39,750 nt of DNA from a virus: positions 1 through 39,750 of the IMG/VR virus record IMGVR_UViG_3300030101_003550; one strand, 5' to 3'. Positions 1 to 26,861 of this stretch are shown here, piece by piece (position 1 is the stretch's first letter; each line of letters opens with the position of its first letter). Both the position numbers and the translations under genes were made by a program. The notes under the pieces are model-generated. The model was not told the DNA's origin and did not search any database. It saw nothing but the letters and a program-made list of their open reading frames with translations.

Positions 1-89
1 ATGGGGAAATTGACCTGAGTAGGGAAGAGCAAAAAGAATTCGAGGAATTTATGAATATGGGGCGGAAAATGTTTGCTCCTAAAAAGTGA
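1..89 (+). CDS. 3' end of an unknown protein (5' cut by window edge)
   Basis: An open frame runs from the window edge (first full codon at 3) to TGA at 87-89 and gives a charged C-terminal tail ending in MGRKMFAPKK. Only about 28 residues are visible, so no function can be given. It is followed at once by the first hairpin leader module. It is probably the last part of another small plus-strand early gene, since the next genes share its strand and style. Confidence 0.5.
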   Translation, partial: GEIDLSREEQKEFEEFMNMGRKMFAPKK

Positions 90-167
90 ATCTTGACTCT
101 GCCCCTCTCAATGAGGGGGGCAGGAATCAGGACTCAATGAAGAGACTGGACCAAACCAAAAAAAATG
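88..167 (+). promoter_or_regulatory. Leader module 1: hairpin plus conserved leader
   Basis: The module starts at the end of the preceding stop codon. TTGACT at 93-98 is followed by an 11-bp stem (99-109 with 113-123, one T-G wobble, loop AAT). Next come GGACTC at 130-135, two CCAAA units, an A run and the ATG at 165. Module 2 at 529-620 repeats the same plan with compensated stem changes. No -10 box is seen at normal spacing from TTGACT, and no T run follows the stem. A plain promoter or intrinsic terminator is therefore not the best reading; an RNA leader or processing element is. Confidence 0.6.
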
Positions 168-527
168 AATACAAAGACAAAGACAAGAGAAGAACAAATC
201 TCAGTGGTTGAAGACGCAATTTCAAAACTAGAGGGAACTCTCATGGGAGATTGGCTGACTGAATCAATTGGACCAGCGGAAGCCGCCATTGAATCCGATT
301 ATCTTCCCTCGCTATGGGTTGAAGGAATAAATGGGTGGGTTCAATCAAAAGTCACCGCTTCACTTTCGGAAAGAGAAGCCGACTTTGACAAGAGAGAAGC
401 CGACCTCGCCAAGAGGGAAGCCGACTTTGAAAGGACGGAAAAAAACTTTGAAAATTGGAGAAAAGAATTTAGGGAAACCGTAAGGGAAACGCACTCGAAA
501 CTAGAGTATTGTCTGGACCACCTTTAG
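165..527 (+). CDS. Unknown early protein with coiled-coil C-terminus
   Basis: 120 residues, not recognised. Residues 1-65 form a mixed domain. From about residue 68 there is a charged helix with a clear 7-residue repeat (READFDK, READLAK, READFER), encoded by three near-identical 21-bp units at about 373-435, so a coiled coil that oligomerises or binds a partner is likely. It starts MNTK after an A run, the same start context as the next five genes. Its leader (88-167) is duplicated upstream of the following gene. It probably belongs to the accessory early block; no function is assigned. Confidence 0.75.
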   Translation: MNTKTKTREEQISVVEDAISKLEGTLMGDWLTESIGPAEAAIESDYLPSLWVEGINGWVQSKVTASLSEREADFDKREADLAKREADFERTEKNFENWRKEFRETVRETHSKLEYCLDHL

Positions 528-528
528 A

Positions 529-620
529 GAATCTTGACTCTGTCCCTTCCGACTTAGGAGGGGACAGGACTCAGGACTCAATGAAGAGACTGAACCAAAC
601 CAAACCAAACCAAAAAAATG
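529..620 (+). promoter_or_regulatory. Leader module 2: hairpin plus conserved leader
   Basis: Paralogue of module 1. TTGACT at 534-539 is followed by an 11-bp stem (540-550 with 557-567) whose T-G wobble is in the same place as in module 1. GGACTC occurs twice (567-572 and 574-579), then ACTGAA, four CCAAA units (595-614; module 1 has two) and the ATG at 618. Three stem pairs differ from module 1 and each change is compensated (C-G to T-A twice, T-A to C-G once), which is direct evidence that the stem itself is conserved. Confidence 0.62.
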
Positions 621-797
621 AATACAATAAAACGACAATACAAAATTGAGAGGGGCCGCCCCTCTTGGCATCAAAGCAAAGCCGGACACATCTTTTCGGG
701 AACCGTAACAGTATCTTTAACCGCGGGGGAATTGACGGCATGGGAAAACAAACTTGAAAAAACGGGGGAACCTTTCCAAATCACACTTATAAAATAA
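618..797 (+). CDS. Small unknown protein (59 aa)
   Basis: ATG at 618 after a (CCAAA)4 and A-run leader, TAA at 795-797. The product starts MNTIKRQYKI and ends FQITLIK. It is basic at the N-terminus and has a pattern compatible with a small beta fold followed by a helix (AGELTAWENKLEKTG). Not recognised. Support for its being real: the conserved leader module directly upstream, the shared ATGAATA start, and no competing plus-strand frame. A minus-strand open frame covering the same bases has no leader and is taken as a shadow. Confidence 0.6.
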   Translation: MNTIKRQYKIERGRPSWHQSKAGHIFSGTVTVSLTAGELTAWENKLEKTGEPFQITLIK

Positions 798-810
798 TTG
801 AATAAAAAAA

Positions 811-839
811 TTGACCTCTTCAAAAATTTCGAGTTTAAT
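811..839 (+). promoter_or_regulatory. Sigma-70-like promoter for the ardA-like gene
   Basis: TTGACC (811-816), 17-bp spacer, TTTAAT (834-839), 16 bases before the ATG at 856. Good -35 and a fair -10. The predicted transcript would have a very short A-rich leader. Confidence 0.5.
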
Positions 840-855
840 TCAAAGCACCAAATAA

Positions 856-1398
856 ATGAATACAAAAATGAATACCAAAGAACAAGACACGCCCCGCATT
901 TATGTGGGAACATATCGCAAATACAATAACGGCTCTATCGCTGGGGGTTGGTTGGACCTTGAAGACTACCCAGACAAAGAGGAATTTTTAGAAGCGTGTG
1001 CCAAACTGCACAAAGATGAATCAGACCCCGAGTTTATGTTTCAAGACTGGGAAAACCTCCCGTCGGGAGTAGTCGGGGAATGCTTTATTAACGAATCAGT
1101 TTGGGAATGGCTCGCTTTAGATGATCACGAGCGGGAACTACTCGCCGTTTATCAGGAACACATTGATTCCTCCGCCGACATTGAGACGGCACAAGACAAC
1201 TTTGCCGGAAGGCATGACAGCGAAAAGGAATTCGCGGAAGAGTGGACCCACCAGACAACAGGGGAAGCCGACTTTGACAGCATAGAATCCCGCCTTGGAA
1301 TTGTTATTGATTGGGAGGCGACATGGAACAGCTATTTAAGACACAGCTTTTCAAGTTGCCGACATAATGGAGAACACTGGTTTTTTCACAGCCGCTAA
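856..1398 (+). CDS. ardA: ArdA-like anti-restriction protein
   Basis: 180 residues, very acidic. The N-terminus matches the ArdA family (PRIYVGTYRKYNNGSIAGGWLDL, here split as PRIYVGTYRKYNNG then GGWLDL) and the rest follows its layout: an acidic middle (GECF, LAVYQEHI, AQDNFAGRH, EFAEEWTHQTT), then IDWEATW and a C-terminal HWFFHSR. ArdA proteins mimic DNA and block type I restriction enzymes; they are carried by plasmids, conjugative elements and phages. The gene has its own promoter (811-839), which fits very early expression. MNTK is repeated at the start (ATGs at 856 and 868), so the true start could be either. Confidence 0.85.
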   Translation: MNTKMNTKEQDTPRIYVGTYRKYNNGSIAGGWLDLEDYPDKEEFLEACAKLHKDESDPEFMFQDWENLPSGVVGECFINESVWEWLALDDHERELLAVYQEHIDSSADIETAQDNFAGRHDSEKEFAEEWTHQTTGEADFDSIESRLGIVIDWEATWNSYLRHSFSSCRHNGEHWFFHSR

Positions 1399-1419
1399 AA
1401 TTAAAATTAAAATTAAAAT
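1396..1419 (+). repeat. (TAAAAT)4 tandem repeat leader
   Basis: Four exact TAAAAT units. The first TAA is the stop codon of the ardA-like gene. The repeat fills most of the gap to the next ATG at 1436, followed by CTAACCACTGAAAAAA. Confidence 0.9.
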
Positions 1420-1435
1420 CTAACCACTGAAAAAA

Positions 1436-1975
1436 ATGAATATATCTGAGATTGAACTACCCACCCTGACCTCCGTTGTCTCTAATCCGAGCGGCTTAGA
1501 TAGTCTCGCTAACTATAGCGGGCCGGACCCCGACGAGTTCGCCCACTTGCTCGTCGTTCTCACCCGAAGCAGGGACAGCGATTGCCTCACCGAGTCTAAT
1601 TTTGAGGTAGCCCTTGAACAACTAGGCGGGGAGGAAAATGAACACGTTGAAATTCACCGCTTCGGTCACTGGGCTTGCGGCTGGTGGGAGGCCCTTGTAG
1701 TTAAGGAAGGGACTGAACAGCACCGTATAGCCCAAGAAATTGATTCAGCCTTGTCAGATTATCCTGTTCTCAATGATGAACATTTCTCTCTGAAAGAAAT
1801 GGAACACGCGAGCGATGTTTGGAGGGACTGCTACACCCACGAGGACAGAATGGAACACCTAAAAGAGAATGAGCATCAATTGGCAACCTACTTCACAAAG
1901 TTCAGCGACTTGCTGGAGTGCGCTAGAGGAAACTACTGCCCCGACTTTAACGGCTACTGTGAAATTATTAACTAA
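1436..1975 (+). CDS. Phage protein of unknown function with HWACGWWE motif
   Basis: 179 residues, acidic, soluble, no membrane segment. A run HFGHWACGWWEA-type (read in the protein as HRFGHWACGWWEA, about residues 74-86), preceded by LTRSRDSDCLTESNF and followed by IDSALSDYPVLNDEHF, resembles a small-protein family I have seen in actinobacterial and other phages, for which I know no function. No catalytic signature is certain. It follows the ardA-like gene, so an anti-defence role is possible but this is only context. It starts MNIS in the same ATGAATA context as its neighbours. Confidence 0.75.
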   Translation: MNISEIELPTLTSVVSNPSGLDSLANYSGPDPDEFAHLLVVLTRSRDSDCLTESNFEVALEQLGGEENEHVEIHRFGHWACGWWEALVVKEGTEQHRIAQEIDSALSDYPVLNDEHFSLKEMEHASDVWRDCYTHEDRMEHLKENEHQLATYFTKFSDLLECARGNYCPDFNGYCEIIN

Positions 1976-1982
1976 TCTTAAA

Positions 1983-2546
1983 ATGAATATAAAAGAATTT
2001 ATTGAGGACAATGTCCCCGCTGAAGTGATCGCTGGAGCATATAAGAAATGTTTCACCCCCCGCCTTAACAGGACGGGCAAGTATGCAAGACACACTTTCT
2101 TGAAGCACTACCTCCAACAGCATTGGACTGGTCCCGCTGCTATCGCTGCAGTGGAGACAGCGACAGGGAAACCCAACTCAATCACGGTGCAATACAGGTA
2201 TGATAGGAAGGGCAGACACCCAATAAATGAGGGGGTAATCGGGACCAGATCACTAAGCTATTTTTGCCGTGATTGGTTCGCCCCCTACCTGTTTGATCAC
2301 TACACGCCTCCAAAACCGGAGCCAAAGCCAGAGCCAGAGCCAAAGCGCATTAATCTAGACGCGACGAAATTCTGGTGTTTTGAGGGTAAGACTAGAGAGG
2401 CGTGCCTCTCGAAATTGCGTGATGCTTTGAGAGAGATAGTTGAATCAAATGATATTGATCAGTTTCTTGATCAATTATCTTTGAAGTATTCCGACGAACC
2501 CCCGCTTGGTCTTGCCGATTTAATAGCTCAAAATATTGACCAATAG
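1983..2546 (+). CDS. Unknown two-domain protein with Pro-Glu linker
   Basis: 187 residues from ATG 1983. An upstream in-frame ATG at 1869 would overlap the previous gene by more than 100 bases and is rejected; 1983 has the usual AAAATGAATATAAAA context. The N-terminal domain (about 1-105) is basic and contains paired aromatics (FCRDWFAPYLF). A linker KPEPKPEPEPK (about 112-122) follows, then a short helical C-terminal domain (LRDALREIVESNDIDQFLDQL). Not recognised. Seven bases separate it from the gene before. Confidence 0.7.
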   Translation: MNIKEFIEDNVPAEVIAGAYKKCFTPRLNRTGKYARHTFLKHYLQQHWTGPAAIAAVETATGKPNSITVQYRYDRKGRHPINEGVIGTRSLSYFCRDWFAPYLFDHYTPPKPEPKPEPEPKRINLDATKFWCFEGKTREACLSKLRDALREIVESNDIDQFLDQLSLKYSDEPPLGLADLIAQNIDQ

Positions 2547-2558
2547 AATTATATTAAC

Positions 2559-2660
2559 ATGAATATACTACTGAATAAAAAGATAGATGAACTCAAAAGA
2601 GATATCATCCCCGCCGATAAATTAAAAGTAGGGGAGACTCAAGGCGACAGCGGCCCCTGA
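2559..2660 (+). CDS. Possible 33-aa protein
   Basis: ATGAATATA start at 2559, TGA at 2658-2660. The product is MNILLNKKIDELKRDIIPAD then KLKVGETQGDSGP. Its start resembles that of the previous gene (MNIKEFIEDNVPAE) in rhythm (N-terminal helix, then IPA/VPA), so it may be a truncated duplicate. Support is only the start context and position; it could be non-coding leader. Confidence 0.35.
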   Translation: MNILLNKKIDELKRDIIPADKLKVGETQGDSGP

Positions 2661-2693
2661 AACCTGAAACCTGAAACCTGAACTACTACTACT
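2656..2693 (+). repeat. (CCTGAAA)3-CCTGAAC plus (ACT)4 leader
   Basis: Three CCTGAAA units (2656-2676), one CCTGAAC (2677-2683), then four ACT units (2682-2693) abutting the ATG at 2694. The first unit contains the stop codon of the small ORF. A related pair of CCCTGAA units (2904-2917) spans the stop codon of the next gene. Confidence 0.9.
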
Positions 2694-2909
2694 ATGGAAA
2701 AAATAATAAGCAAAACCGCCCAGATACATGGGCGAGGATCGCAGCCCTACCGATGGGTCTCCCGCCTGACCGTTGAGGAACAACACGCCGTGAAAAGAGG
2801 CGAGTTAGTTCTAATCCGTGATCATCACCCTCTGTCAGGGTGTGATTACAAAAGAGTCGTGTATGACCCCCGATCAAAAAAATTCGGCCACCGCAACTAC
2901 AAACCCTGA
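2694..2909 (+). CDS. Small basic unknown protein (71 aa)
   Basis: Starts MEKIISKTAQIHGRG, contains LTVEEQHAVKRGELVLIRDHHP and ends FGHRNYKP. Basic, no cysteines beyond one, no membrane segment. The LTVEEQHAVKRGE stretch followed by short beta strands could be a small nucleic-acid or protein binding domain, but I do not recognise a family. Its start sits directly after the (CCTGAAA)/(ACT) repeat leader. Part of the plus-strand early block. Confidence 0.6.
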   Translation: MEKIISKTAQIHGRGSQPYRWVSRLTVEEQHAVKRGELVLIRDHHPLSGCDYKRVVYDPRSKKFGHRNYKP

Positions 2910-2921
2910 ACCCTGAACCGT

Positions 2922-2994
2922 GTGTCCTGTAGCCCCCGTGCAGGACGCATAGTTCAGGAGTCATGAAGACTCACTGAACCTAAACAAAACCATG
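2922..2994 (+). promoter_or_regulatory. Leader module 3 (diverged): two hairpins before a small gene
   Basis: First stem 2922-2929 with 2941-2948 (8 bp, one T-G pair, core GTCCTG/CAGGAC). Second stem GTTCAG plus GAGTC (2952-2962) with GACTC, bulged A, CTGAAC (2968-2979), loop ATGAA. The second part aligns with modules 1 and 2 (CAGGACTCAATGAAGAGACTGAACC there, split as CAGGACTCAATGAAG and AGACTGAACC). A short A/C-rich leader leads to ATG 2992. Confidence 0.5.
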
Positions 2995-3114
2995 ATCAGC
3001 AAAGCTCAAATAGCACTAGCGTCCACGATCTTTTTCGTCGCCGTGTATGCCATCCACACCGTCGGCCTCGATAACATCGTTCGCCGAATCATCTCCACAG
3101 TATTCGACCTGTAA
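2992..3114 (+). CDS. Small single-span membrane protein (40 aa)
   Basis: ATG 2992, TAA 3112-3114. MISKAQ is followed by a hydrophobic helix at about residues 7-25 (IALASTIFFVAVYAI, HTVGL) and a short basic tail (NIVRRIISTVFDL). One transmembrane segment is likely. It has its own leader module (2922-2994) and lies 5 bases before the next gene. Function unknown; small membrane proteins in early phage blocks are sometimes superinfection-exclusion or envelope-modifying factors, but nothing here shows that. Confidence 0.6.
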   Translation: MISKAQIALASTIFFVAVYAIHTVGLDNIVRRIISTVFDL

Positions 3115-3119
3115 CCACC

Positions 3120-3377
3120 ATGAATGATCCTATAAAAAACGAGAATGACGGTCTCATGAGAGACGTGGATGCGCTCCTTACTTACCCGAATAATTCAGGA
3201 TTGACCACGATTGAACGATACAAATTAGGCGAAATTGATAATCCGTCGGGTTATCTCATGGCGATCTCTCGACAAGTCATAAAAGTGAGATCCCCCCGCG
3301 ACATTTGGCGACGAAATAAAGCGGTGTTTCTATCTCTCGTTAAACTGGGGGCTAAAAAAATTGAAAAAAATAATTGA
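3120..3377 (+). CDS. Unknown protein (85 aa)
   Basis: Starts MNDPIKNEN. The middle is LLTYPNNSGLTTIERYKLGEID and the C-terminus is basic (RSPRDIWRRNKAVFLSLVKLGAKKIEKNN). Soluble and mostly helical by eye. Not recognised. Its stop codon overlaps the -35 box of the promoter at 3374-3401, so it likely ends a transcription unit or is followed by a new internal start. Confidence 0.6.
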   Translation: MNDPIKNENDGLMRDVDALLTYPNNSGLTTIERYKLGEIDNPSGYLMAISRQVIKVRSPRDIWRRNKAVFLSLVKLGAKKIEKNN

Positions 3378-3401
3378 CAACCTAATCACATATTCCATAA
3401 T
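3374..3401 (+). promoter_or_regulatory. Strong sigma-70-like promoter
   Basis: TTGACA (3374-3379), 16-bp spacer, CATAAT (3396-3401). The predicted start lies in GGGGACTCAAC (3402-3412), nearly the same sequence as at the promoter at 4637. ACTGAATATAAAA then leads to ATG 3432. Confidence 0.7.
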
Positions 3402-3431
3402 GGGGACTCAACTACAACACTGAATATAAAA

Positions 3432-3710
3432 ATGAAAGAAAGACCGAGGAAAAACATCACTATCACCAAGAAATTAACCTCTGAGCAGGTGATCTCCGAG
3501 ATCGTAAAACAATACGCCAAGTCGGGGCGTGCAATCTTCGGAATCGAGCTTGCGGAGCCTCTCGGTGTGAGTCGAGCCTACGTTGACGCATACATCGACT
3601 ATCACCGCCTCGATGTGCTCACTCTGATGAAGGTGAACCCTAACACCTCCAGTAAGCGTGCGAGAAAGAGCAAAGCGTATATTCCGGTCCCTGCTGAAAT
3701 AAAGATTTAA
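3432..3710 (+). CDS. Small helix-turn-helix-like protein
   Basis: 92 residues, basic. Residues about 35-58 read IELAEPLGVSRAYVDAYID, which fits a helix-turn-helix with GVSRAYV at the turn and start of the recognition helix. The N-terminus (MKERPRKNITITKK) and C-terminus (SSKRARKSK) are positively charged, as in DNA binders. It has a strong promoter of its own and is followed by the three-way-junction RNA element, so it could be an early regulator. The family is not identified, and the HTH call rests on pattern only. Confidence 0.55.
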   Translation: MKERPRKNITITKKLTSEQVISEIVKQYAKSGRAIFGIELAEPLGVSRAYVDAYIDYHRLDVLTLMKVNPNTSSKRARKSKAYIPVPAEIKI

Positions 3711-3714
3711 GATT

Positions 3715-3787
3715 TGACCTCCCCCGCCGTCTGTTGAAGACCGAGCCTAAGTTTGTGTGTTCTTAGTATAGGCTCGGGGGGAGGTCA
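3715..3787 (+). ncRNA. Candidate three-way-junction leader RNA
   Basis: P1: 11 perfect base pairs, 3715-3725 with 3777-3787. P2: GTCT/AGAC, 3729-3732 with 3738-3741, loop GTTGA. P3: 8 perfect pairs, 3742-3749 with 3769-3776, loop of 19 nt. P2 abuts P3 and P3 abuts P1 with no unpaired bases; only three bases (3726-3728) join P1 to P2. An alternative pairing CTAAG/CTTAG within P3 could compete with it. It starts 4 bases after a stop codon and ends 10 bases before the ATG at 3798. No T run follows. It could be a riboswitch-like or protein-binding leader, or an unusual terminator. No known class recognised. Confidence 0.6.
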
Positions 3788-3797
3788 CCTTTCACCA

Positions 3798-3860
3798 ATG
3801 AATATGATGAATTATGAATATGAATATGAATATGAATATGAATACAGATACTGCATCTAA
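3798..3860 (+). CDS. Possible leader peptide with Tyr-Glu repeats
   Basis: ATG at 3798 opens a 20-codon frame (MNMMNYEYEYEYEYEYRYCI) ending TAA at 3858-3860. It overlaps, in another frame, the tandem ATGAAT array used by the next gene. It sits just after the structured RNA, the place expected for a leader peptide. The frame could equally be a by-product of the repeat. Confidence 0.25.
   Translation: MNMMNYEYEYEYEYEYRYCI
3814..3843 (+). repeat. (ATGAAT)5 tandem start-codon array
   Basis: Five exact ATGAAT units, all in the frame of the following gene, giving up to five alternative start codons (3814, 3820, 3826, 3832, 3838). Unit changes keep frame, so slippage would only change the length of an N-terminal MN repeat. 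Confidence 0.9.
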
Positions 3861-4032
3861 AAATGCAGAAGAGAAATGGAGAGACGATGATTATAAAGAG
3901 GCTCTCGCCACCACCGATCTCCGCTGGGATCTTGGCTGGGCAATCGGACTATTAAATCCTGAGAACCCCGCCCTAGCTCAACGGCTAGATGCTAATCTAA
4001 AGAGGCATGAACAGAGGAGGGTTCAACAATGA
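3838..4032 (+). CDS. Small unknown protein (64-72 aa depending on start)
   Basis: The ATG at 3838 (MNTDTASKNAEE) is preferred because it has the ATGAATACA context of other starts; upstream in-frame ATGs of the repeat would add up to four MN pairs. The protein is charged and helical with a tryptophan-rich middle (DLRWDLGWAIGLLNPENPALAQRLDANLKRH). Not recognised. Its stop overlaps the next start (ATGA), so the next two genes are probably translated by coupling to it. Confidence 0.6.
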   Translation: MNTDTASKNAEEKWRDDDYKEALATTDLRWDLGWAIGLLNPENPALAQRLDANLKRHEQRRVQQ

Positions 4033-4271
4033 GCCTCGATCTAGAAGCCGTGGTCTCGGATGGCAAGCGAGCCTACGCGAACTGGTCAACCTTAGATTTG
4101 TGCGACTACATGGAAGCCCTCGACGCTTATCATGAATCGCTTGAAGACCAAGCCGAACAATCGGCATGGGTAAACATCGAGGAGTATCACGAATGGCTCG
4201 ACAAGCGAGCCGAAGAAGCCATCGAAGAGATGGATAAGGACAAAGAATACCAAGCTCACTTTACCCAATGA
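4029..4271 (+). CDS. Acidic unknown protein (80 aa)
   Basis: Start codon overlaps the previous stop (ATGA), and the same overlap links it to the next gene. The product is strongly acidic and helical (LDAYHESLEDQAEQSAWVNIEEYHEWLDKRAEEAIEEMDKD, read in segments), with several Trp and Tyr. Such a small acidic helical protein could be a DNA mimic or an inhibitor of a host protein, but there is no motif to show this. Confidence 0.65.
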   Translation: MSLDLEAVVSDGKRAYANWSTLDLCDYMEALDAYHESLEDQAEQSAWVNIEEYHEWLDKRAEEAIEEMDKDKEYQAHFTQ

Positions 4272-4627
4272 TTCCATTACTATTACTCGCGGCTTGGTTT
4301 TTAGCCACCGTATTTCTTTGCCGGATGTTCCACGTCTGCACGACATACGATCACCCCGTCATTGAAGGGGAGGAAGAGGAGGAAGAGGAGGAAGAGGAGG
4401 AAGAGGAATACGAGATGGAGATAGAGCAGTGCTATCGATGTGGTGTTGAAAACTATCCCGACGATGAGACGGTATCATGGAGAGACGAAGGCTATGAACA
4501 CGACGAACACGATGCCCTTTTCTGCGATTCGTGTTTCCAAGACAAAGACAAGTATGGTCAGCCATATCTCTCCGACCTAGATGATATGAGGGACAACCCC
4601 CACGACTACCTACCGTATGGGTATTGA
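4268..4627 (+). CDS. Membrane-anchored poly-Glu protein with zinc-ribbon-like Cys pairs
   Basis: 119 residues. Residues 2-20 form one hydrophobic segment (IPLLLLAAWFLATVFLCRMF). A run of about 15 acidic residues follows at 33-49 (EGEEEEEEE...), encoded by four exact AGGAAGAGG units (4371-4406). Then CYRCG (about 55-59) and CDSC (about 87-90) form a CxxC...CxxC pair fitting a small zinc ribbon, and the tail is acidic and Tyr-rich. The combination of a membrane anchor, acidic spacer and cytoplasmic zinc ribbon is unusual. Coupled by ATGA overlap to the gene before. Not recognised. Confidence 0.65.
   Translation: MIPLLLLAAWFLATVFLCRMFHVCTTYDHPVIEGEEEEEEEEEEEEEYEMEIEQCYRCGVENYPDDETVSWRDEGYEHDEHDALFCDSCFQDKDKYGQPYLSDLDDMRDNPHDYLPYGY
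4371..4406 (+). repeat. (AGGAAGAGG)4 in-frame repeat
   Basis: Four exact 9-bp units coding for glutamates. A 9-bp unit keeps the frame when copy number changes, so spacer length could vary between isolates. Confidence 0.9.
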
Positions 4628-4636
4628 AGAAAAGAA

Positions 4637-4664
4637 TTGACAACTGAATCACCTCGTCTATAAT
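4637..4664 (+). promoter_or_regulatory. Consensus sigma-70 promoter
   Basis: TTGACA (4637-4642), 16-bp spacer, TATAAT (4659-4664): both boxes match consensus. GAGGACTCAAC follows at the expected start point, as at 3402-3412. ACTGAATA occurs twice before ATG 4700. It would drive the operon 4700-6692 or further. Confidence 0.8.
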
Positions 4665-4699
4665 GAGGACTCAACTTCAACTGAATAACAAAACTGAAT

Positions 4700-5065
4700 A
4701 TGACAAAACTAGACAAACCAGTTCACCGTGAGGTGACAATAAACGGAAGCGACTACATCGCTTCTCTCGATCCCAAGATGGAGTTCACACTCCGTAAGAA
4801 AAGATCCAAAGAAACATATCGCCAGAAGATGGCTTTCTTTCTTAATGAGGAACCGCCATCAGAGGTAGCTCCTGCACTAGAACCGGAAGGAGATGAATTG
4901 ATGATGCTCCACCGTATAAAAGCGAAAGTGTCCATAAACCCTATGGATCTAAAATTAAAGATCGAAGTATTGAAAGCCATCGATGATCTCATCGAGCAGG
5001 GAGAATACCTCGCCCCAAAAAACTGGGACGAAGCTGATACTGAAACCCGAACCCTGACTCTGTAA
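4700..5065 (+). CDS. Unknown protein (121 aa)
   Basis: First gene after the strongest promoter in the window. The N-terminal half is basic with beta character (VHREVTINGSDYIASLD, LRKKRSKETYRQK); the second half is helical and acidic (INPMDLKLKIEVLKAIDDLIEQGEYL). No motif recognised. The TAATG junction with the next gene (5063-5067) implies coupled translation, and the operon continues into the helicase, so a role in DNA metabolism is possible by context only. Confidence 0.65.
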   Translation: MTKLDKPVHREVTINGSDYIASLDPKMEFTLRKKRSKETYRQKMAFFLNEEPPSEVAPALEPEGDELMMLHRIKAKVSINPMDLKLKIEVLKAIDDLIEQGEYLAPKNWDEADTETRTLTL

Positions 5066-5313
5066 TGTTAGTGCGTAAAATTAGCAAAGGTTTGTATGAG
5101 GTGATCGACGATCACAGCAACAACTACAGGGTGGAAGACAGCCAGCGACCCGACCCAGAATACAACGCGCCTGATTCACTAGAGCCGGATGAACGATGGT
5201 GTATCTTTGAGCAGGAAAAGGGTGAGTGGGTATTCCTCGATGCCAATGAGACTCTGAAGGACTCGCTCGGCGTGATCGAAACATGGGCAGCAGCATCTGA
5301 GCTAGGGACATGA
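5065..5313 (+). CDS. Unknown small protein (82 aa)
   Basis: Starts MLVRKISKGLYEVIDDHSNN, continues with an acidic middle (DPEYNAPDSLEPDERWCIFEQEKGEWVFLD) and ends AAASELGT. Alternating hydrophobic residues suggest a small beta domain. Linked by a 1-base TAATG overlap to the gene before and by an ATGA overlap to the helicase gene after. It may be a helicase partner, but only position says so. Confidence 0.65.
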   Translation: MLVRKISKGLYEVIDDHSNNYRVEDSQRPDPEYNAPDSLEPDERWCIFEQEKGEWVFLDANETLKDSLGVIETWAAASELGT

Positions 5314-6692
5314 AGACATTATTTCCCCGTCAAAAAGACGCTCACGATTTCTTTGTGGCTTGCTTGGAGAATGGGCAGAACACCTTGGACAGTTCCCATA
5401 TGGGAACGGGCAAGACTGTTGTGGGATCACAAGTCGCCAAGACTCTGTTGGATCAGGGCAAGATTACTGGTGTTGCCGTTGTATGTCCCAAAGCCGTCTT
5501 CCCTTCATGGGAGACAGAGTTAAAGGAAACAGGTATAGATCCCTTGTTTGTTTTGAATCTAGAGAAACTCCGCACTGGCAAGTCCGAATGGGTTAGTAAG
5601 GTGGGCAAGAAAACTTTCAAGTGGGATTTGCCGAAGGGAACTCTTGTCCTGTTCGATGAGATCCACAAAGCGAAGGGACCGTGGACACAGAACGGGAACC
5701 TCCTTATTGGTCTAACCAGATACGGGTATCGAGTTCATGGTATGAGCGGAACCCCCTGCGAGTCTCCGATGGAGATGAGACCCCTCGGCTATATGCTTGG
5801 GCTACATAGTAATGACAAGGCTCGGGGAAACAAGCTCAACTGGTTTCAATGGATGCGTTATCTTAAAGTAAAGTCGGGATACTTCGGGGGGTATGAAATG
5901 TCAGACCCCGCCTTCGCCCTGTCAGAATTAAGGAGAACGATGTATGGCAAGAACACGCACGGTCTTACTGTTGTAGATTTCCCTGATTCTTTCCGCGACA
6001 ATCGAGTTCTCGTGGACCCGATTGAGTTCACTAACAATGCTAAGATTGTTAAATCATATAAGAAACTCAATATGACAGCGGAAAACGTCAAGGAATACAT
6101 CGAAGACGGGAGACTCCCCGCTGAATGGTTGGAGGAGTCGGATGAGATGAGTGTCCTTGTTAAGATATTGAGGGCTAGGCAAGAGTGTGAATCGCTGAAA
6201 GTAAAAGACATCGTCACGATGGCCCAAGATGCAGTCGAAGAAGGATACAGTGTGGTAGTGTTTATGAACTTCACCGAGTCCCTGATGGAAACTGCTTCCC
6301 TACTTGATTGCCAGTATATCGACGGGACTGTGAAGCAGAAGGACCGTAATCAGATCGTCGAGGAATTCCAATCAGACAAAACCAACTGTATCGTGGTTAA
6401 TGCTGCGACAGGTGGAACAGGAATCTCCCTCCATGATATTCATGGAAACCGACCACGCCTTTCTTTGATTAGTCCTAGTTTCAACGCCAAAGAATTCAGC
6501 CAAGTGCTTGGGCGGATTCATCGAAACGGGGCGAAGTCCGATGCACTTCAAAAGGTTATGATATCGAATGGCTCAATTGAGCAATACGTTATGAAAGCCA
6601 TAAATCGCAAAATGAATAACATGAATAAGATACACCACTCCCAAGTTGGGGAGTTCACTTCCTCTTACTACACGGGGGACAACCAGTTTTAA
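5310..6692 (+). CDS. SF2 (SNF2-like) DNA helicase
   Basis: 460 residues with the full superfamily 2 motif set: Q-like FPRQKDAHDFF at the start, Walker A MGTGKT (31-36), DEIH Walker B (116-119), motif III SGTP (146-149), second RecA lobe with VVVFMNF (about 316-322), ATGGTGISLHD (about 366-376) and the arginine-finger motif QVLGRIHR (398-405). SNF2/UvsW-like enzymes of this size are common in phages and act in replication restart, branch migration or DNA remodelling using ATP. Start overlaps the previous stop (ATGA). Which branch of SF2 it belongs to is not certain. Confidence 0.88.
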   Translation: MKTLFPRQKDAHDFFVACLENGQNTLDSSHMGTGKTVVGSQVAKTLLDQGKITGVAVVCPKAVFPSWETELKETGIDPLFVLNLEKLRTGKSEWVSKVGKKTFKWDLPKGTLVLFDEIHKAKGPWTQNGNLLIGLTRYGYRVHGMSGTPCESPMEMRPLGYMLGLHSNDKARGNKLNWFQWMRYLKVKSGYFGGYEMSDPAFALSELRRTMYGKNTHGLTVVDFPDSFRDNRVLVDPIEFTNNAKIVKSYKKLNMTAENVKEYIEDGRLPAEWLEESDEMSVLVKILRARQECESLKVKDIVTMAQDAVEEGYSVVVFMNFTESLMETASLLDCQYIDGTVKQKDRNQIVEEFQSDKTNCIVVNAATGGTGISLHDIHGNRPRLSLISPSFNAKEFSQVLGRIHRNGAKSDALQKVMISNGSIEQYVMKAINRKMNNMNKIHHSQVGEFTSSYYTGDNQF

Positions 6693-6695
6693 TAT

Positions 6696-6992
6696 ATGAA
6701 AGAACCAAAAAATACTACCGCTGCTGTGATAGACATAAACGACTTTAGTTTATCCCTTAAAGCCAGACAGGATGACAACCAGATGAACCCCTCTGGATGG
6801 AGCATCATCGCCTTCGCCCCCGCTGCGAGTATCCGTTGCATAAGAGCGCACCAGAAGAGGCATCTAGATTTATTTATACGGAGCATCCTAGCCTTGGTTG
6901 GGGACGTAAGTTTAGACCCAAGACACTACAGGCTGGTCGAAAAAACGATTCATCAGATTACTAACGGAGTATTTGACGATGAAGATAATTAG
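6696..6992 (+). CDS. Unknown protein (98 aa)
   Basis: Begins 3 bases after the helicase stop, so likely in the same operon. Residues 1-30 are polar, a hydrophobic core follows (WSIIAFAPAASIRCIRAHQKRH), then LDLFIRSILALVGDVSLDP and a helical end. No motif recognised. The end overlaps the start of the next gene by 14 bases. Confidence 0.6.
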   Translation: MKEPKNTTAAVIDINDFSLSLKARQDDNQMNPSGWSIIAFAPAASIRCIRAHQKRHLDLFIRSILALVGDVSLDPRHYRLVEKTIHQITNGVFDDEDN

Positions 6993-7257
6993 AACAGTAG
7001 TCGAGACCCATAAACCTAACTACATGAAATTCTTATTCCAAGGAGAAGTTAAAGATGAAGATTATGTATGTCCGACAACAGTCAAAATTTATACGTTGTG
7101 GAAGAATTACAGTGGGGTAGATCGAATAGGCCCAGAGATAACTGGACCCGCTCCCGAATCTGTTTCTCTTTTATTTGAGGATGCTTACAGCCGAGAAAGC
7201 AAGTTACGGCTTAATGCCGCTGTGACATTAACCAAACTATTTAGAGAGTCTCAATGA
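6979..7257 (+). CDS. Unknown protein (92 aa)
   Basis: ATG at 6979 is chosen over a TTG at 6973 in the same frame. Starts MKIIRTVVETHKPNYMKFLFQ, with beta-type segments and GPEITGPAPESVSLLFEDAYS, and a helical C-terminus (LRLNAAVTLTKLF). Not recognised. Its stop overlaps the start of a 27-codon gene (ATGA). Confidence 0.6.
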   Translation: MKIIRTVVETHKPNYMKFLFQGEVKDEDYVCPTTVKIYTLWKNYSGVDRIGPEITGPAPESVSLLFEDAYSRESKLRLNAAVTLTKLFRESQ

Positions 7258-7337
7258 ATGACGAGACGATGGCTCTCATAATTATGTTGATTGCCCTGCT
7301 AGTTATCTTTATATCTCTATTTAAACCAGACTTATGA
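7254..7337 (+). CDS. 27-aa single-span membrane microprotein
   Basis: ATG 7254-7256 overlaps the previous stop, and its own TGA (7335-7337) overlaps the next ATG at 7334. The product is MNDETMALIIMLIALLVIFI then SLFKPDL: almost entirely one hydrophobic helix with an acidic N-terminus and a single basic residue after it. Exact ATGA coupling at both ends and the ATGAAT start are the evidence that it is a real gene. Function unknown. Confidence 0.6.
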   Translation: MNDETMALIIMLIALLVIFISLFKPDL

Positions 7338-7669
7338 CTTTAGAACAACTGCTACAACTCCACCAAGAAACTACCGATAAGTGTAGGGCTATCATGGAAA
7401 AGAAGAATAGTGATTACACCGGAGGCAAAGAAGCCGATGATGTGTTCGCTAATTTCCGATGCTCAACTATCTTGAACGTGCATCCTGTAACCGGAATCAT
7501 GATGCGAGTTATGGATAAAATCCAGCGGATCAAGACCTTCACGAACGATGGTGAGCTGTCTGTATCAGGAGAAACGGTTGATGATGCGTGTGAAGACATT
7601 ATCAATTACGCCATACTAGCAAAAGCAATGTTCCGGCAAGAAAGGGATAGTAAGGGAAATAAATCATAG
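7334..7669 (+). CDS. Nmad1 / DUF1599 family protein
   Basis: 111 residues. The family signature is visible: KNSDYTGGKEADDVFANFR (about 24-42), then GIMMRVMDKIQRIKTF and VDDACEDIINYAILAKAMF. This family (nucleotide modification associated domain 1) is common in phages and has been linked by gene context to base or nucleotide modification; the helical pattern with acidic residues recalls MazG-like nucleotide hydrolases, but the enzyme activity is not established to my knowledge. Coupled by ATGA to the microprotein before. No other modification gene is seen in this window. Confidence 0.8.
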   Translation: MTLEQLLQLHQETTDKCRAIMEKKNSDYTGGKEADDVFANFRCSTILNVHPVTGIMMRVMDKIQRIKTFTNDGELSVSGETVDDACEDIINYAILAKAMFRQERDSKGNKS

Positions 7670-7689
7670 CAACGAGCAAAGAATAAATA

Positions 7690-8043
7690 ATGAATAAAGA
7701 AAGAAAAATTAAGGGTCTCACCAAATACAAACAAAACGTCGTGGGAAAAGTATGCTCCCTAGTAGCGGATGAATTCTCGATTTACGAAGACGATCTGTTT
7801 AAAAAATCCCGAGCGTACCAATACTCGATTCCGAGATCTGTTGCAGTCGTTTTGCTACGAAAAAATTACGGGATTCAGCATCAGATTATCGCGGATTATT
7901 TTGGATACTCCTCTCACAGTAGTGTCCCCCATGCCGTGAGGGCAATAGATCGTAAAATTAACACCGACCCTGAGTTGCGGTCTATTATCCGAAATATTTT
8001 GAATAACGTAGATAAAGAAATTAAACCGAATCAAAGACCATGA
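7690..8043 (+). CDS. Stand-alone DnaA domain-IV-like DNA-binding protein
   Basis: 117 residues. From about residue 20 the protein follows the C-terminal domain of DnaA: VADEFSIYEDDLFKKSRAYQ, PRSVAVVLLRKNYGI, IIADYFGYSSHSSVPHAVRAI (the last segment, about 67-86, aligns with the DnaA signature with D-H-S/T-V-x-H-A). In DnaA this domain recognises the 9-bp DnaA box. There is no ATPase domain here. Likely roles are binding the phage origin or competing with host DnaA at its boxes. Start context is ATAATGAATAAAG, and an ATGA overlap links it to the next gene. The fold call is firm; the role is inferred. Confidence 0.82.
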   Translation: MNKERKIKGLTKYKQNVVGKVCSLVADEFSIYEDDLFKKSRAYQYSIPRSVAVVLLRKNYGIQHQIIADYFGYSSHSSVPHAVRAIDRKINTDPELRSIIRNILNNVDKEIKPNQRP

Positions 8044-8474
8044 GGATAAAAATAAAGTCCCCCATATTTATACTGGCACTGTGTATCACTCCGATTGCCG
8101 CTGTCTTGCTTATCTCGGCCTCGTCGGATCTCCCCGAACCTGTTGAGGAAGCAGTCAAAGAATCACCTAAAAAAATTAGTGCATCGGTAATCCTGTCGAA
8201 GTGGCAAGTGGAAAAGATGTTGGGGAGCTTTAACGATGACGATCATCCGTCAGATATGCGTGTCTTCACATCCGTAGTAAAGGAGTATGCGGAGGGGTGG
8301 AAAATATCGTCTACACACCTAGTCCGTAACCCGAAGGACGTGATCCTTCCGACCACAGAATTCCACGTCATAGATTCGGCATTCGTCGATTACTCTGGTA
8401 CTTTCAGAGAGTGTGTGGAGTATGCGAATGCCTTTAAAAACCACCATGATTATATCGTAGTTAAACTAAAGTAA
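8040..8474 (+). CDS. Exported or membrane-anchored unknown protein
   Basis: 144 residues. Basic MRIKIK, then a hydrophobic helix at about 8-28 (PIFILALCITPIAAVLLISA), so a signal peptide or N-terminal anchor. The rest is polar (DLPEPVEEAVKESPKK linker, then a mixed domain with TTEFHVIDSAFVDYSG). No lipobox or catalytic motif. Coupled by ATGA to the DnaA-like gene. Unknown role at the cell envelope. Confidence 0.65.
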   Translation: MRIKIKSPIFILALCITPIAAVLLISASSDLPEPVEEAVKESPKKISASVILSKWQVEKMLGSFNDDDHPSDMRVFTSVVKEYAEGWKISSTHLVRNPKDVILPTTEFHVIDSAFVDYSGTFRECVEYANAFKNHHDYIVVKLK

Positions 8475-8566
8475 TATTTTTGCCAAGAGAGTCTGGTTCA
8501 TAGTCGCTGGCGGGGCAGTGTGGCTCTCACCCCGAACTCAACAAATAATGATTTAACATCAAAGAT

Positions 8567-8824
8567 ATGAAAGGGAGTAATAAACAATCAAACGGTGATT
8601 CGGCCTTTGAGGACATACTTATCGCAGCACGTCGAAATAAACTAAATGAATGCCTACAAACTCTTCGCGAGTGGGTAGACGAGCAGACGCTGGGTGAACA
8701 AAACCCCAACACAACTCTTGAAGTTCTTAAAAGAAAGGTTCAAGAGGTAGTCCACTCCGTCGAGAAGGCAGGGTGGAACGCGCTACCAGAACACAAGAAG
8801 AATCAAACAAGTTCCCCTCGCTGA
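8567..8824 (+). CDS. Unknown helical protein (85 aa)
   Basis: Last gene of the left plus-strand block. Polar N-terminus (MKGSNKQSNGDS), then long helices (FEDILIAARRNKLNECLQTL, REWVDEQT, LEVLKRKVQEVVHSVEKAGW). Not recognised. The 92 bases before it hold no gene; CGGGG and CCCCG there could pair. It converges with the minus-strand genes, ending 59 bases from the stop of the 46-residue gene. Confidence 0.55.
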   Translation: MKGSNKQSNGDSAFEDILIAARRNKLNECLQTLREWVDEQTLGEQNPNTTLEVLKRKVQEVVHSVEKAGWNALPEHKKNQTSSPR

Positions 8825-8828
8825 ACAA

Positions 8829-8857
8829 TACCCCTCTCTCAAAAAGAAAATAGGGGG
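8829..8857. terminator. Weak hairpin between convergent genes
   Basis: CCCCT (8831-8835) can pair with AGGGG (8852-8856) across a 16-base A-rich loop, between the plus block and the minus block. The stem is short and no T run follows on either strand. Position suits a terminator; sequence support is weak. Confidence 0.25.
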
Positions 8858-8883
8858 AGTCAAAAAGCAATACTCTTTGAGGT

Positions 8884-9024
8884 TTAGTATCCCCCACCCA
8901 TCCGCTTATTAACAGCTTCAGTGAAGGATGCTTTACTCTTCTTAGCTGGTTTCTTTTTAGCTAATTTCTTTTTAGATTTTGGCTTAGAGCCGCCACTGTT
9001 TTGGTATCCTGTCCCGTAAGGCAT
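8884..9024 (-). CDS. Small lysine-rich protein (46 aa), MPYG family
   Basis: ATG at 9024 down to TAA at 8884-8886. Reads MPYGTGYQNSGGSKPK, then lysine/alanine repeats (KKKLAKKKPAKKSK) and ends SFTEAVNKRMGGGY. Tiny proteins that begin MPYG and carry Lys-rich tracts are often seen next to virion genes in marine podoviruses; their role is not known to me. The C-terminal SFxExVNKRM is shared with the neighbour at 9043-9294, so the two look like diverged duplicates. Probably the last gene of the giant-protein operon; possibly DNA-associated in the capsid. Confidence 0.65.
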   Translation of the reverse strand: MPYGTGYQNSGGSKPKSKKKLAKKKPAKKSKASFTEAVNKRMGGGY

Positions 9025-9042: not shown

Positions 9043-9294
9043 TTATTTCATTCTCTTGTTGACTCTTTCAACAAACGAATCTCGTTCTTTCTTCGTCACT
9101 TCTTTCTTAGCGACTTTCTTAGCGACTTTCTTCTTGGCAACTTTCTTTGCGGCGGGGCTTAATTCATCGAAATGAAAAAGTTTCTCGCTGTCGGAGTTGT
9201 GTGATTTGCCAGTATGGAGTTCTCCATTCGGCATCTTGTGAGTGCCACCCTTGTGGATGGTCCCGTCTTTTTTGTAATGTGGTACGCCCTTCAT
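9043..9294 (-). CDS. Small lysine-rich protein (83 aa) with KKVAKK repeats
   Basis: Starts MKGVPHYKKDGTIHKGGTHK, then MPNGELHTGKSH, followed by AKKVAKKKVAKKVAKKEVTK and DSFVERVNKRMK. The KKVAKK repeats resemble histone H1-like or nucleoid-type tails, which suggests DNA binding. Start overlaps the stop of the giant gene (ATGA), so expression is tied to it. Shares its C-terminal motif with the next gene downstream (8884-9024). Likely a minor virion or DNA-condensing protein by context; not proven. Confidence 0.7.
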   Translation of the reverse strand: MKGVPHYKKDGTIHKGGTHKMPNGELHTGKSHNSDSEKLFHFDELSPAAKKVAKKKVAKKVAKKEVTKKERDSFVERVNKRMK

Positions 9295-12200
9295 TTTTCT
9301 ATATTGATAACTTCGTTCGGATATTTTTGTTCGTAATAGGATTCAAGATTACTAAGTCTCGTTCTCCCGTTTTTTGTTTCTTTTAGTTGTGCTTGTAAAG
9401 GTTTTGTTGGAGTAGGTCTTACCATGTAGCCTAGTCGATTCTGCTTCAATCGTTCTTTACTAACCGACCTAGACTTTGCCATCCGTTCGATATCTTTACG
9501 AGACACCCCCAGCTTTTCAAATCCTCGGATAGTTTGTTTGAAGTCATTGTTAAGATACAATCTAGTTTTTACCCATCGGTCGTAAGCTTCCCTCACTTCA
9601 CTTGCAGGAAGAACCTGTTGTTGTGTCATCTTTGATCTGAACGCTTGATCATTAGCACGATATTCGTTGGTGTGGTTGTAGAGATAACGCCCAACTCCCG
9701 CTGTGTAATCTTGTTGGTGTGGTCGGAATGGCAGCACCGATTTCATAAGATGACCAAGAGCTGAGTCGAAGAATGAAGCCGTCCTTTCTTGGGAAAGGAA
9801 AGAATCGTATGCGGCATCCGCTGACATGAGGGATCTAGGAGAGAACGCTTTTTCCCCGATATACTTCAAGCTTCTCATTAATTTGTCATCATCGCCAGCG
9901 AGTCTTATTGGTCTTCCATATTGATCTTCGTTTTCAAAAACGTCGAGGAGTGCTCCTGTCAGAATTTGTTCGCTGACATATGGTCTCAAAAACTGACCAA
10001 TAAATTTCTTGGAAGCTGTCCCGATTCCTTCACCTCTTAGCAATGATTCAACGGCCCTGATTGCTGGATCTTGAACGATAGCAAATGGATTGAGGTAAGT
10101 CATATCGACTGACCATGTATCCCCATCCGAGTCTTTGTATAAAAAGATACTCGCGTTTCTCATCCACTTCGGAACCATAGCACGGAATGCTTTGTCCTCG
10201 TCTTCATCGTCCATCCCCCATAAGAGCATCTGAGTTCCTTTGCCGAGTGCGACAGAAACAGCCGTTGTTCTTGTGGCTCCGAATAAACGCTTCCTCCCCC
10301 TAGCTTTGATAGCGGGGTTGTCGCTAAATATTTCGTCACGCGCTCTTAGAATTCCGTTGAAATAAACTCTAGGGACATCAGCCGCGAATCTCACATAAGG
10401 GGCGAGAGCAATTGATAGGCTGCTAGACGTAAACCGTTTGATAACAGGTAAGGCTCTGCTGTAAGATTGAGCCGTGTCTTTCACGATCTCAGCAGCCAAG
10501 TCCTTCATGGTATTGTTTGGATTCCCGTCATCATCGAGGAGTCTGCCATACTTACCGTTTGGTTTTCCGTTCTCAATGTCGTGTTTAGCAGCCGCTATCA
10601 ATGTCTGCATCTCAAAATCATAGAGGCCGATCTTAAAGAACCCGTCAGCGGCGGATGCAAGCAACCCACCTTTCTTTAACAGCAAGTCGTTGGCTTTACC
10701 TAAAGCTTTTAATGGCATCATACCTACTTTGCTTACGTTTACCCCCGCCTTCGCGAGTATTTCGAGGTGTTCGTCAGGGATTTTAACAGCTCCGCTCTTC
10801 TGCTTAATGTCTTTGAGGTAATTAGCCGCCGCCGCTACCTTATCTAGATCTTTTTGTAGACTTTCGTAGTTAGTTTTTCCTGAAACAAGGTCTTGGATCT
10901 GAGATACTTCAAGCTCATCCCCGTAAATATTTCTGCTTCTAAGCTCCATCAATTCAAAGCTCAATTCATTCCCCATTACTTGGTAGAATACCGAGTCGGG
11001 GTTCTTGGTATAAAGACCACTAGCATCTTTAGCGAAATCTTTTATCACTCTGTGCGATGGATAGCCCTGCATTGGACCGAAAAACAACATATTGCCAAGG
11101 ATGTTTCGGATGTAAAAAGCAGGGGAGCCTAGAGTCTTATAAGCGAGGGAATACCCAACCAACTTTCTAGTGGCGTTCACTATCATGCCCTGCACTTCCG
11201 CCATTTCGTTGAGTGGGTCGGTTATGTCGGGTTGCTTACCTCCGAATAGAGCGTCTAAATTCGACACTACTTCTTTAGGGACATACATATCCGCCAAAGG
11301 ATTAAGATCACTACTCTTCCCTTCGGTTAGGATTGGTTCCCAGTTTGGATACTTATCTCTGTTTGCTAAGTATTCTTTTTGGGTAACCATCCAAGGAGTT
11401 CCCTCAACCTTGCCAGTTTCTGGATTAACGCCAGTTCCTAATGCTTTTAGTTTATTAAAGAACGCCTGATTAGAGATCATACTAGCCGTGTGATTCAACG
11501 AATAGCTGAGATTATAAATCCCTGTATCTTCTTGGAACTCCCCAAGAAGTTCTCGGATTTCTTGAGGGATATCCTTCTTTTCATTAATCGTCTCAACAAT
11601 CTTTTGAAGTGGATCGTTTTTCCCGAACGATGCACCCTGTAGCACTAAATCCTGTTGCCCCATCTCTCGTTGGGAAGTCAGGAATTTCTTCCGCGCTTGC
11701 CCTTGAGAATAGCCATCGATGAAATCATTCATCATAGCTGTTGCTTGTGATTGCATATGTGAGTTCTTGCCAGTGGTCTCGGCTTTCAATTCATCGTTAA
11801 TTTCTTCTTTAGTTTTTCCCTGTTTGCTTAGTTCCTTGTCCCTTTGGTTCCGCAGTTGTTTCATAAAGTAAGCGACTGCTCGCTCGCGAACTTCGGCATA
11901 TTGGTCAGACTCTTTAACTTGCTTAGAGAAGTTACGGTCTTCAAACATACGATACGACCGTGTTAAATACAGACCCCGATTGAAATCAAAAGCCATGTTC
12001 AAATCTTCGGGATTCATGGTAGGTCCAAAGACTTCGATTGCTTTCTTTGAAAGCTGGTCTTGAAGCTGACGCATCTCAAGAACAAGGTTATACATATCAG
12101 GGGAGATTTTTAACAAATCATCCATTGCTCGATCCCTCTGATCGAACTGCTTCTTCCGATTAGTTTCACGGAAGTCCATTGTCATCTGCTTCTTAGAAGC

Positions 12201-26743: not shown

Positions 26744-26812
26744 GTAATGCGGCGGCGAAACCTACGCTGGTTAATCATCCGCCTTTGGGTAACCGCATAA
26801 AAGCCCGATAAA
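26744..26812 (+). ncRNA. Candidate structured RNA (possible pseudoknot) before polA
   Basis: Non-coding gap. ATGCGG (26747-26752) pairs with CCGCAT (26793-26798), with AACC/GGTT (26759-26762 with 26769-26772) inside. Alternatively GGCGG (26751-26755) pairs with CCGCC (26779-26783) while GGTTA (26769-26773) pairs with TAACC (26790-26794), which is an H-type pseudoknot closed by ATGC/GCAT. The two folds exclude each other. No known RNA class recognised; chance pairing is possible at these lengths. Confidence 0.35.
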
Positions 26813-26851
26813 TACCCCACCCTCTGCCATCATCTTTAGGAGGGTGGGGTA
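26813..26851 (+). promoter_or_regulatory. Perfect 12-bp hairpin 10 bases before polA
   Basis: TACCCCACCCTC (26813-26824) pairs fully with GAGGGTGGGGTA (26840-26851), loop of 15 bases. ACTTTATATT follows, then ATG 26862. No T run, so intrinsic termination is doubtful. Like the other leaders here, the 5' arm is pyrimidine-rich and the 3' arm purine-rich. It may shield, process or regulate the polA mRNA, or end the upstream transcript. Confidence 0.6.
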
Positions 26852-26861
26852 ACTTTATATT

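Follow-up and report, generated by a model that had tools for sequence, protein, structure and literature searches.

The hairpin leaders of two adjacent small genes in an uncultivated phage are copies of a cis-acting structured RNA family formed in the coding-strand RNA. Compensatory change maintains its helices beyond what column and slid controls give, which is the general criterion for a cis-acting structured RNA. The element probably controls the cutting or the translation of a common mRNA. Tentatively, we read the leaders as copies of an intercistronic processing or stability signal on an early polycistronic mRNA. The family is uncatalogued and is used repeatedly by an uncultivated phage group for which no close cultured relative was found in searches, and its pairing is supported at the base level. 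The elements offer a handle on how phages of non-Shine-Dalgarno hosts separate and control genes in a common early transcript, and the two mutually exclusive helices give a testable switch model.

Copies of the element in the window

The window is the whole stretch of viral DNA that was analysed (39.75 kb). The initial annotation described two leaders at 88-164 and 529-617 with hairpin stems and CCAAA units, and both were found as described (Table 1). Their common block, the 19-mer GGACTCAATGAAGAGACTG, was confirmed as well; it occurs exactly twice in the window, and shuffles predict 0.00 occurrences at up to 3 mismatches. Both copies are real, and a third had been missed at 2908-2979.

Table 1. 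Positions of the hairpins, start regions and genes of the three elements in the window
Feature	Position	Strand	Description
Element 1 main hairpin	88-135	+	P1 91-96/127-132 plus 88-89/134-135; inner stem 98-109/113-124; loop 110-112
Element 1 alternative hairpin P2	127-149	+	UCAG 127-130 with CUGG 146-149; CUC 133-135 with GAG 142-144
Start region of gene 165-527	150-164	+	Unstructured, A/C-rich, CCAAA units
Gene 1	165-527	+	120 aa, coiled-coil-like
Element 2 main hairpin	529-579	+	P1 532-537/571-576; inner stem 539-550/557-568
Element 2 alternative hairpin P2	571-593	+	UCAG 571-574 with CUGA 590-593; CUC 577-579 with GAG 586-588
Start region of gene 618-797	594-617	+	Unstructured CCAAA repeats
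Gene 2	618-797	+	59 aa
Element 3 main hairpin	2908-2961	+	P1 2912-2918/2952-2958; inner stem 2920-2931/2939-2950
Element 3 alternative hairpin P2	2953-2979	+	UUCAGGAGUC-AUGAA-GACUC-A-CUGAA; z -3.83
Gene 3	2992-3114	+	40 aa, membrane-protein-like

The three elements are the top three 50-nt plus-strand folds by stability in sliding windows over all 39.75 kb, and element 3 is the most stable. Element 1 (88-152) folds at -29.8 kcal/mol (z -5.70) and element 2 (529-596) at -30.3 kcal/mol (z -5.15), with no shuffle as stable in either case; the covariance model returned them at E 6e-9 and 1.3e-7, respectively. The main hairpin of element 3 folds at -32.7 kcal/mol (z -7.51), and a tandem CCCTGAA stands just 5' of it. 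Element 3 has the same plan as elements 1 and 2 with an inner stem unrelated in sequence.

An 11-bp stem had been described in elements 1 and 2. This inner stem exists, but the stem as a whole is longer, about 20 bp in each element with the outer helix P1, and a small internal loop lies between the two helices. Three inner-stem pairs differ between elements 1 and 2, and all three are compensated (C-G/T-A at 102-120, and T-A/C-G and C-G/T-A close to the loop). A T-G wobble is unchanged at the same place, so the annotated pattern of base changes stands in full. The common block GGACTCAATGAAGAGACTG is a second hairpin (P2) that has UCAG in common with P1.

General plan of the element

At the base of the hairpin, P1 comprises 5-11 bp with a nearly invariant core, CYUGA:UCAGG. 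An internal loop of 0-3 nt separates it from an inner stem of 10-15 bp, in which the sequence is free, as it is in the terminal loop. The total number of pairs is 20.2 ± 2.1 per copy, whatever the sequence or terminal loop.

The elements are always intergenic, always 5' of an ATG and on the same strand, with a distance from UCAG to ATG of usually 19-54 nt. In 16 of 19 copies the previous gene has its stop codon between -12 and +9 nt relative to the element start, although in such compact genomes any intergenic element adjoins a stop and a start. P2 is followed by an A/C-rich, G-poor start region, often with short tandem units (CCAAA, CCCTGAA and others). The CCAAA units had been assigned to the common leader; they are present there, but CCAAA or CTAAA repeats are a separate feature that also precedes genes of relatives without a hairpin.

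Start regions made of short tandem repeats were also observed at 1398-1430, 2660-2690 and 3800-3842 of the window and at 14452, 14943 and 15926 of contig L058. The units are TTAAAA, CCTGAAA, ATGAAT (start codon included), CCAAA and CTAAA, as if they had arisen from slippage.

Occurrence of the element in related phages

An SNF2-type helicase alignment was used to gather further relatives. Seven copies served to build a covariance model that covers P1 and the inner stem; this model and structure scans, with the copies read by eye, gave 26 copies in 12 phage contigs. They are distributed as five in G001, four each in G005 and the contig of L103, three each in the window and G015, and one each in G003, L097, L096, G010, G012, G018 and G017. 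The G018 copy is identical to the G012 copy, and P1 is weak in the L096 copy. One further copy in L095, cut by the contig end, stands outside the 26. The initial annotation had proposed this kind of search, with missing copies and lost pairing in relatives as the outcome that would speak against a folded element; further copies were found, and pairing is kept in them. A 19-mer scan also located a third occurrence of GGACTCAATGAAGAGACTG in another phage, G001.

The structure scan at a threshold of at least 30 gave 24 matches in 772 kb of real sequence versus 3 in 455 kb after resampling; at a threshold of at least 35 the counts were 19 versus 0, the real matches counting both strands of some elements. 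Weak model matches at G018:46778, G012:7852, L024:1508 and L097:742, and on the two strands of L058 around 13.4-13.6 kb, were set aside after reading. Three bacterial loci from a DNA-pattern scan were judged to be chance inverted repeats.

No Rfam 15 family matched the elements at gathering or relaxed thresholds, and annotated phage records held no DNA similarity to the two leaders searched. Cultured relatives were not found by DNA, the only homologues being remote ones of the helicase and polymerase. A helicase scan of bacterial genomes, run as a host search, gave no relatives.

Elements are gained and lost among orthologues. In the gene family immediately ahead of the helicase, only 2 of about 19 members have the element; thus no single gene requires it, and a fixed association with the downstream gene was rejected. 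The gene at 2694-2909 has an element directly behind it in three of the six phages with the gene (the window, L020 and L028), each time ahead of a different gene, and has none directly behind it in L095-L097. A 3' element of the upstream gene was rejected on this count. In G005, a small membrane-like protein is encoded behind a related element.

Selection on the pairing of the helices

Because the inner stem was misplaced when all copies were aligned together with MAFFT, the copies were split into two sequence classes before pairs were counted. In the GAACCCUGAACC class (11 copies), 91.3% of cells are paired, and this collapses to 27-39% when partners are slid. Both sides changed in 25 cells, compared with 9.8 ± 2.7 in shuffles, and none of 500 shuffles reached the covariation score of 0.309. 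In the GAAUCUUGA class (9 copies), 98.0% of cells are paired versus 45-60% after sliding. Over the two classes, a slide of a single column leaves 33-60% of cells paired. In the GAAUCUUGA class the two other measures diverge. Its covariation score is above all shuffles, whereas its changed-pair count is not (95 of 500 shuffles reach the same count). Relatedness of the copies inflates the covariation scores of both classes. The compensatory changes sit in inner-stem pairs and the P1 core pairs hardly vary, so P1 is supported mainly by conservation and by a few co-varying extensions.

The orthologous copies are the cleanest cases of compensation, as in the direct compensation between GUGUGUCC/GGACACAC in G005 and GUGCGCCC/GGGCGCAC in its relative in L103. 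The claim of selection on a folded hairpin is thus borne out by copies that keep their pairing by compensation in 12 contigs. It had been left undecided between an RNA and a DNA hairpin. The folded element can be narrowed to the coding-strand RNA, because 41 of 384 pairs are G-U and the copies have one orientation, all 5' of a start codon.

The same leader stands on unrelated genes, is present or absent on orthologues, and follows the 2694-2909 gene ahead of three different next genes. Such a distribution would suit a linker for mobility or recombination, in the form of a short repeated cassette that moves from gene to gene and aids the exchange of small accessory genes, like the PeSLs of T4, with folding mainly for spread or insulation. 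We regard this as quite unlikely: neither fixed ends nor a target duplication were seen, and unlike PeSLs the elements contain no promoter. Moreover, since orthologous copies show compensatory changes, the pairing has been kept long after arrival, which counts against a linker.

An alternative hairpin on the same strand

P2 is present on the UCAG strand in 17 of the 19 copies folded and absent in two. Its short form is UCAGG-N5-6-CCUGA, and in the long form UCAG is followed by GAGUC-AUGAA-GACUC or the like and then by CUGA. P1 and P2 have UCAG in common, so their full forms are mutually exclusive. A CTGA lies 3' of UCAG in 14 of 19 copies versus 11% of background windows, the copies not being independent. 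Inner pairs of P2 covary in the pair count of the GAACCCUGAACC class (helix 3). For the MSH/MHN gene, P2 reads UUCAGG-AGUC...GACCGACCUGAA, UUCAGGGGUC...GACCCACUGAA and UUCAGAGGUC...GAACCACUGAA in three phages. One G001 copy has a central UCAGU with ACUGA on either side, the change being matched in both helices.

The UCAG strand common to both helices and the covariation within P2 argue for a bistable translational leader. P1 and P2 would be the states of a switch in which ribosomes at the end of the upstream gene, or a bound protein, favour P2 and alter initiation at the downstream ATG, and early genes would be coupled or autoregulated as a consequence. This reading is possible but doubtful. 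With P1 and P2 forced in turn, the energies lie no more than 2.7 kcal/mol apart in 11 of 19 copies, but several copies prefer P1 by over 4 kcal/mol. The short form of P2 ends about 8-10 nt 5' of the ATG and could block a ribosome, whereas the long form ends 16-33 nt away and would not. Taken by itself, P2 is weak in elements 1 and 2 (z -1.0 and -1.9), though relatives support the P2 of element 1, and is clear in element 3. The two copies without P2 also count against a switch. It is unlikely that the elements form a regulon-wide ribosome-responsive switch in phages without Shine-Dalgarno usage, in which one conserved UCAG would pair alternately with a CUGA on its 5' or its 3' side in many early gaps, and the end of translation of one gene would reset the fold for admission or processing of the following gene.

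The P2 loop of elements 1 and 2 contains an AUG that opens short overlapping frames (MKRL[D/N]QTK..., within 130-240), one frame off the gene, and an AGGA lies just 5' of it. The corresponding AUG of L103 and L026 shares its frame with a long ORF. A leader peptide from this AUG (MKRL...) was rejected as a general explanation, given the loops AAAAA, AAAAC and ACAAC and the short P2 copies without AUG.

Gene context and expression signals

The first genes of the window are small and mostly without an assigned function, and one is of the ArdA anti-restriction type. Shine-Dalgarno sites were found at 7 of 88 ORF starts in the window, compared with 11 expected by shuffling. A 117-aa protein at 7690-8043 has a DnaA C-terminal DNA-binding domain (PF08299, E 3e-12), which is unusual for a small phage gene. 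A 3306-aa protein at 9291-19211 on the minus strand has no Pfam match, in a phage record of 39.75 kb.

A scan of the window elements found no promoter-like site, and neither a -10 box nor a T run follows the hairpins, in agreement with the annotated view that they are neither plain promoters nor intrinsic terminators. A promoter-like TTGACA-16-TATAAT lies at 4637, and a site one base off lies at 3374, both outside the elements.

ArdA-type anti-restriction genes are found in plasmid leading regions. The ArdA-type gene nearby and the TTGAC at the hairpin base would suggest a DNA-level element, either an operator or a single-stranded or cruciform promoter of the N4 or F-plasmid Frpo type with TTGACT as its -35. 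This is highly improbable and largely refuted. TTGACT, which had been annotated as a separate box before the stem, forms the 5' arm of P1 in both elements 1 and 2 and is not conserved, reading CCTGA, CTTGAA or ACTGA elsewhere. The lack of a -10 and the G-U pairs speak against it as well, and the sites at 3374 and 4637 look different. A promoter with TTGACT as -35 was rejected on these grounds.

The regions 3374-3418 and 4637-4681 are near-identical, with TTGACA-16-(T/C)ATAAT followed by GGGACTCAAC or AGGACTCAAC. The sequence (A)GGACTCAA occurs also in elements 1 and 2 (129-137 and 573-581), either as a common initial sequence or by chance.

No terminator-like site was found on the plus strand in 1-8979, and stable GC-rich hairpins stand just after stop codons, as an unusual terminator or attenuator without a U tract might. 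We consider this very unlikely, because a start codon lies 19-54 nt further on and no promoter intervenes, and the free inner stem, conserved base and internal loop are not terminator-like. The intrinsic form, a GC hairpin followed by a T run, was rejected for want of a U run.

Other structured sequences were also seen. At 3714-3790 of the window (fold z -5.4) and at 7885-7955 of L005, a different leader, possibly a three-way junction, stands 5' of small genes in both phages. It reads GACCUCCCCC...GGGGGGAGGUC in the window and GACUCUGCCC...GGGGCAGAGUC in G003, with outer arms that are changed and still paired. An intergenic hairpin at 26808-26856, UACCCCACCCUC...GAGGGUGGGGUA (-26.6 kcal/mol, z -4.3), lies just 5' of the DNA polymerase gene at 26862 and is unrelated in sequence to the elements.

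Proposed mechanism

About two turns of interrupted helix and a conserved base are constant, and the inner sequence and loop are free, which favours a factor that measures double-stranded RNA over a loop-binding protein. Such a factor, taken with the likeness to the early gaps and R1.1 of T7, leads us to prefer processing or stability, with the P1/P2 switch second and the mobile linker third. No promoter, terminator or Shine-Dalgarno signal accounts for the elements.

The two-turn, loop-interrupted helix would be a post-transcriptional signal by which early mRNA is cut or stabilised gene by gene. The likeliest agent would be a nuclease specific for double strands, host RNase III for example, by analogy with the sites between T7 cistrons. 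After cutting or protection, each small gene would begin with a clean 5' start region free of structure, and the 3' end of the gene before it would be protected. The exchange of P1 and P2 may decide whether the site is presented, possibly driven by ribosomes that end translation of the upstream gene and would be positioned on the 5' arm of P1. The internal loop, which is smaller than that of T7 R1.1, argues against processing, as do the two copies without P2, the weak P1 of L096 and the orthologues of the same gene that can be without the element.

Comparison with known systems

In Rfam terms, the elements would be filed as a cis-regulatory leader, and they match no family. The SAS and ESAS repeats of cluster K mycobacteriophages lie just 5' of the start codons of unrelated small genes, and ESAS consist of imperfect inverted repeats separated by 4-13 bp (PMC3203893, PMC12699233). 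The elements are likewise repeated 5' of the start codons of unrelated small genes. However, ESAS have 17-bp arms of conserved sequence tied to GGGATAGGAGCCC, whereas here the inner arms are free and only a 5-nt base is conserved. The SAS motif GGGATAGGAGCCC beside the start codon is absent from the leaders, which are CCAAA- or A-rich, and the phage of the elements does not use Shine-Dalgarno sites.

PeSLs of T4-like phages are described as composite promoter-terminator stem-loop cassettes between shuffled accessory genes (PMC4503421). The elements resemble PeSLs so described as intergenic stem-loop cassettes in shuffled accessory-gene regions, and differ from them in having no early promoter at the window elements and no U tract.

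The closest likeness in geometry is to the early RNase III sites of T7 (R0.3, R0.5, R1, R1.1 and R1.3), which are hairpins of some 20 pairs, interrupted by internal loops, that follow a stop and precede a start between early genes. In both phages the early genes include one for anti-restriction. R1.1, a documented target of RNase III, has an internal loop of 4/5 nt (PMC6121014). That asymmetric loop contrasts with about 1-3 nt on each side here, whereas the two-turn stem with an internal loop between early cistrons is common to both. The elements are further set apart by their conserved CYUGA:UCAGG base and competing hairpin, and no sequence similarity to the T7 sites was seen. They are also carried by many non-homologous genes. 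With the same folding program, the early intercistronic gaps of T7, taken at the RNase III site positions, gave 19-25 pairs and upper stems of 9-13 bp in stretches of 62-85 nt. The elements therefore fall outside SAS/ESAS, PeSLs, intrinsic terminators and the Rfam families, and among these systems they share only the geometric part of T7-type sites.
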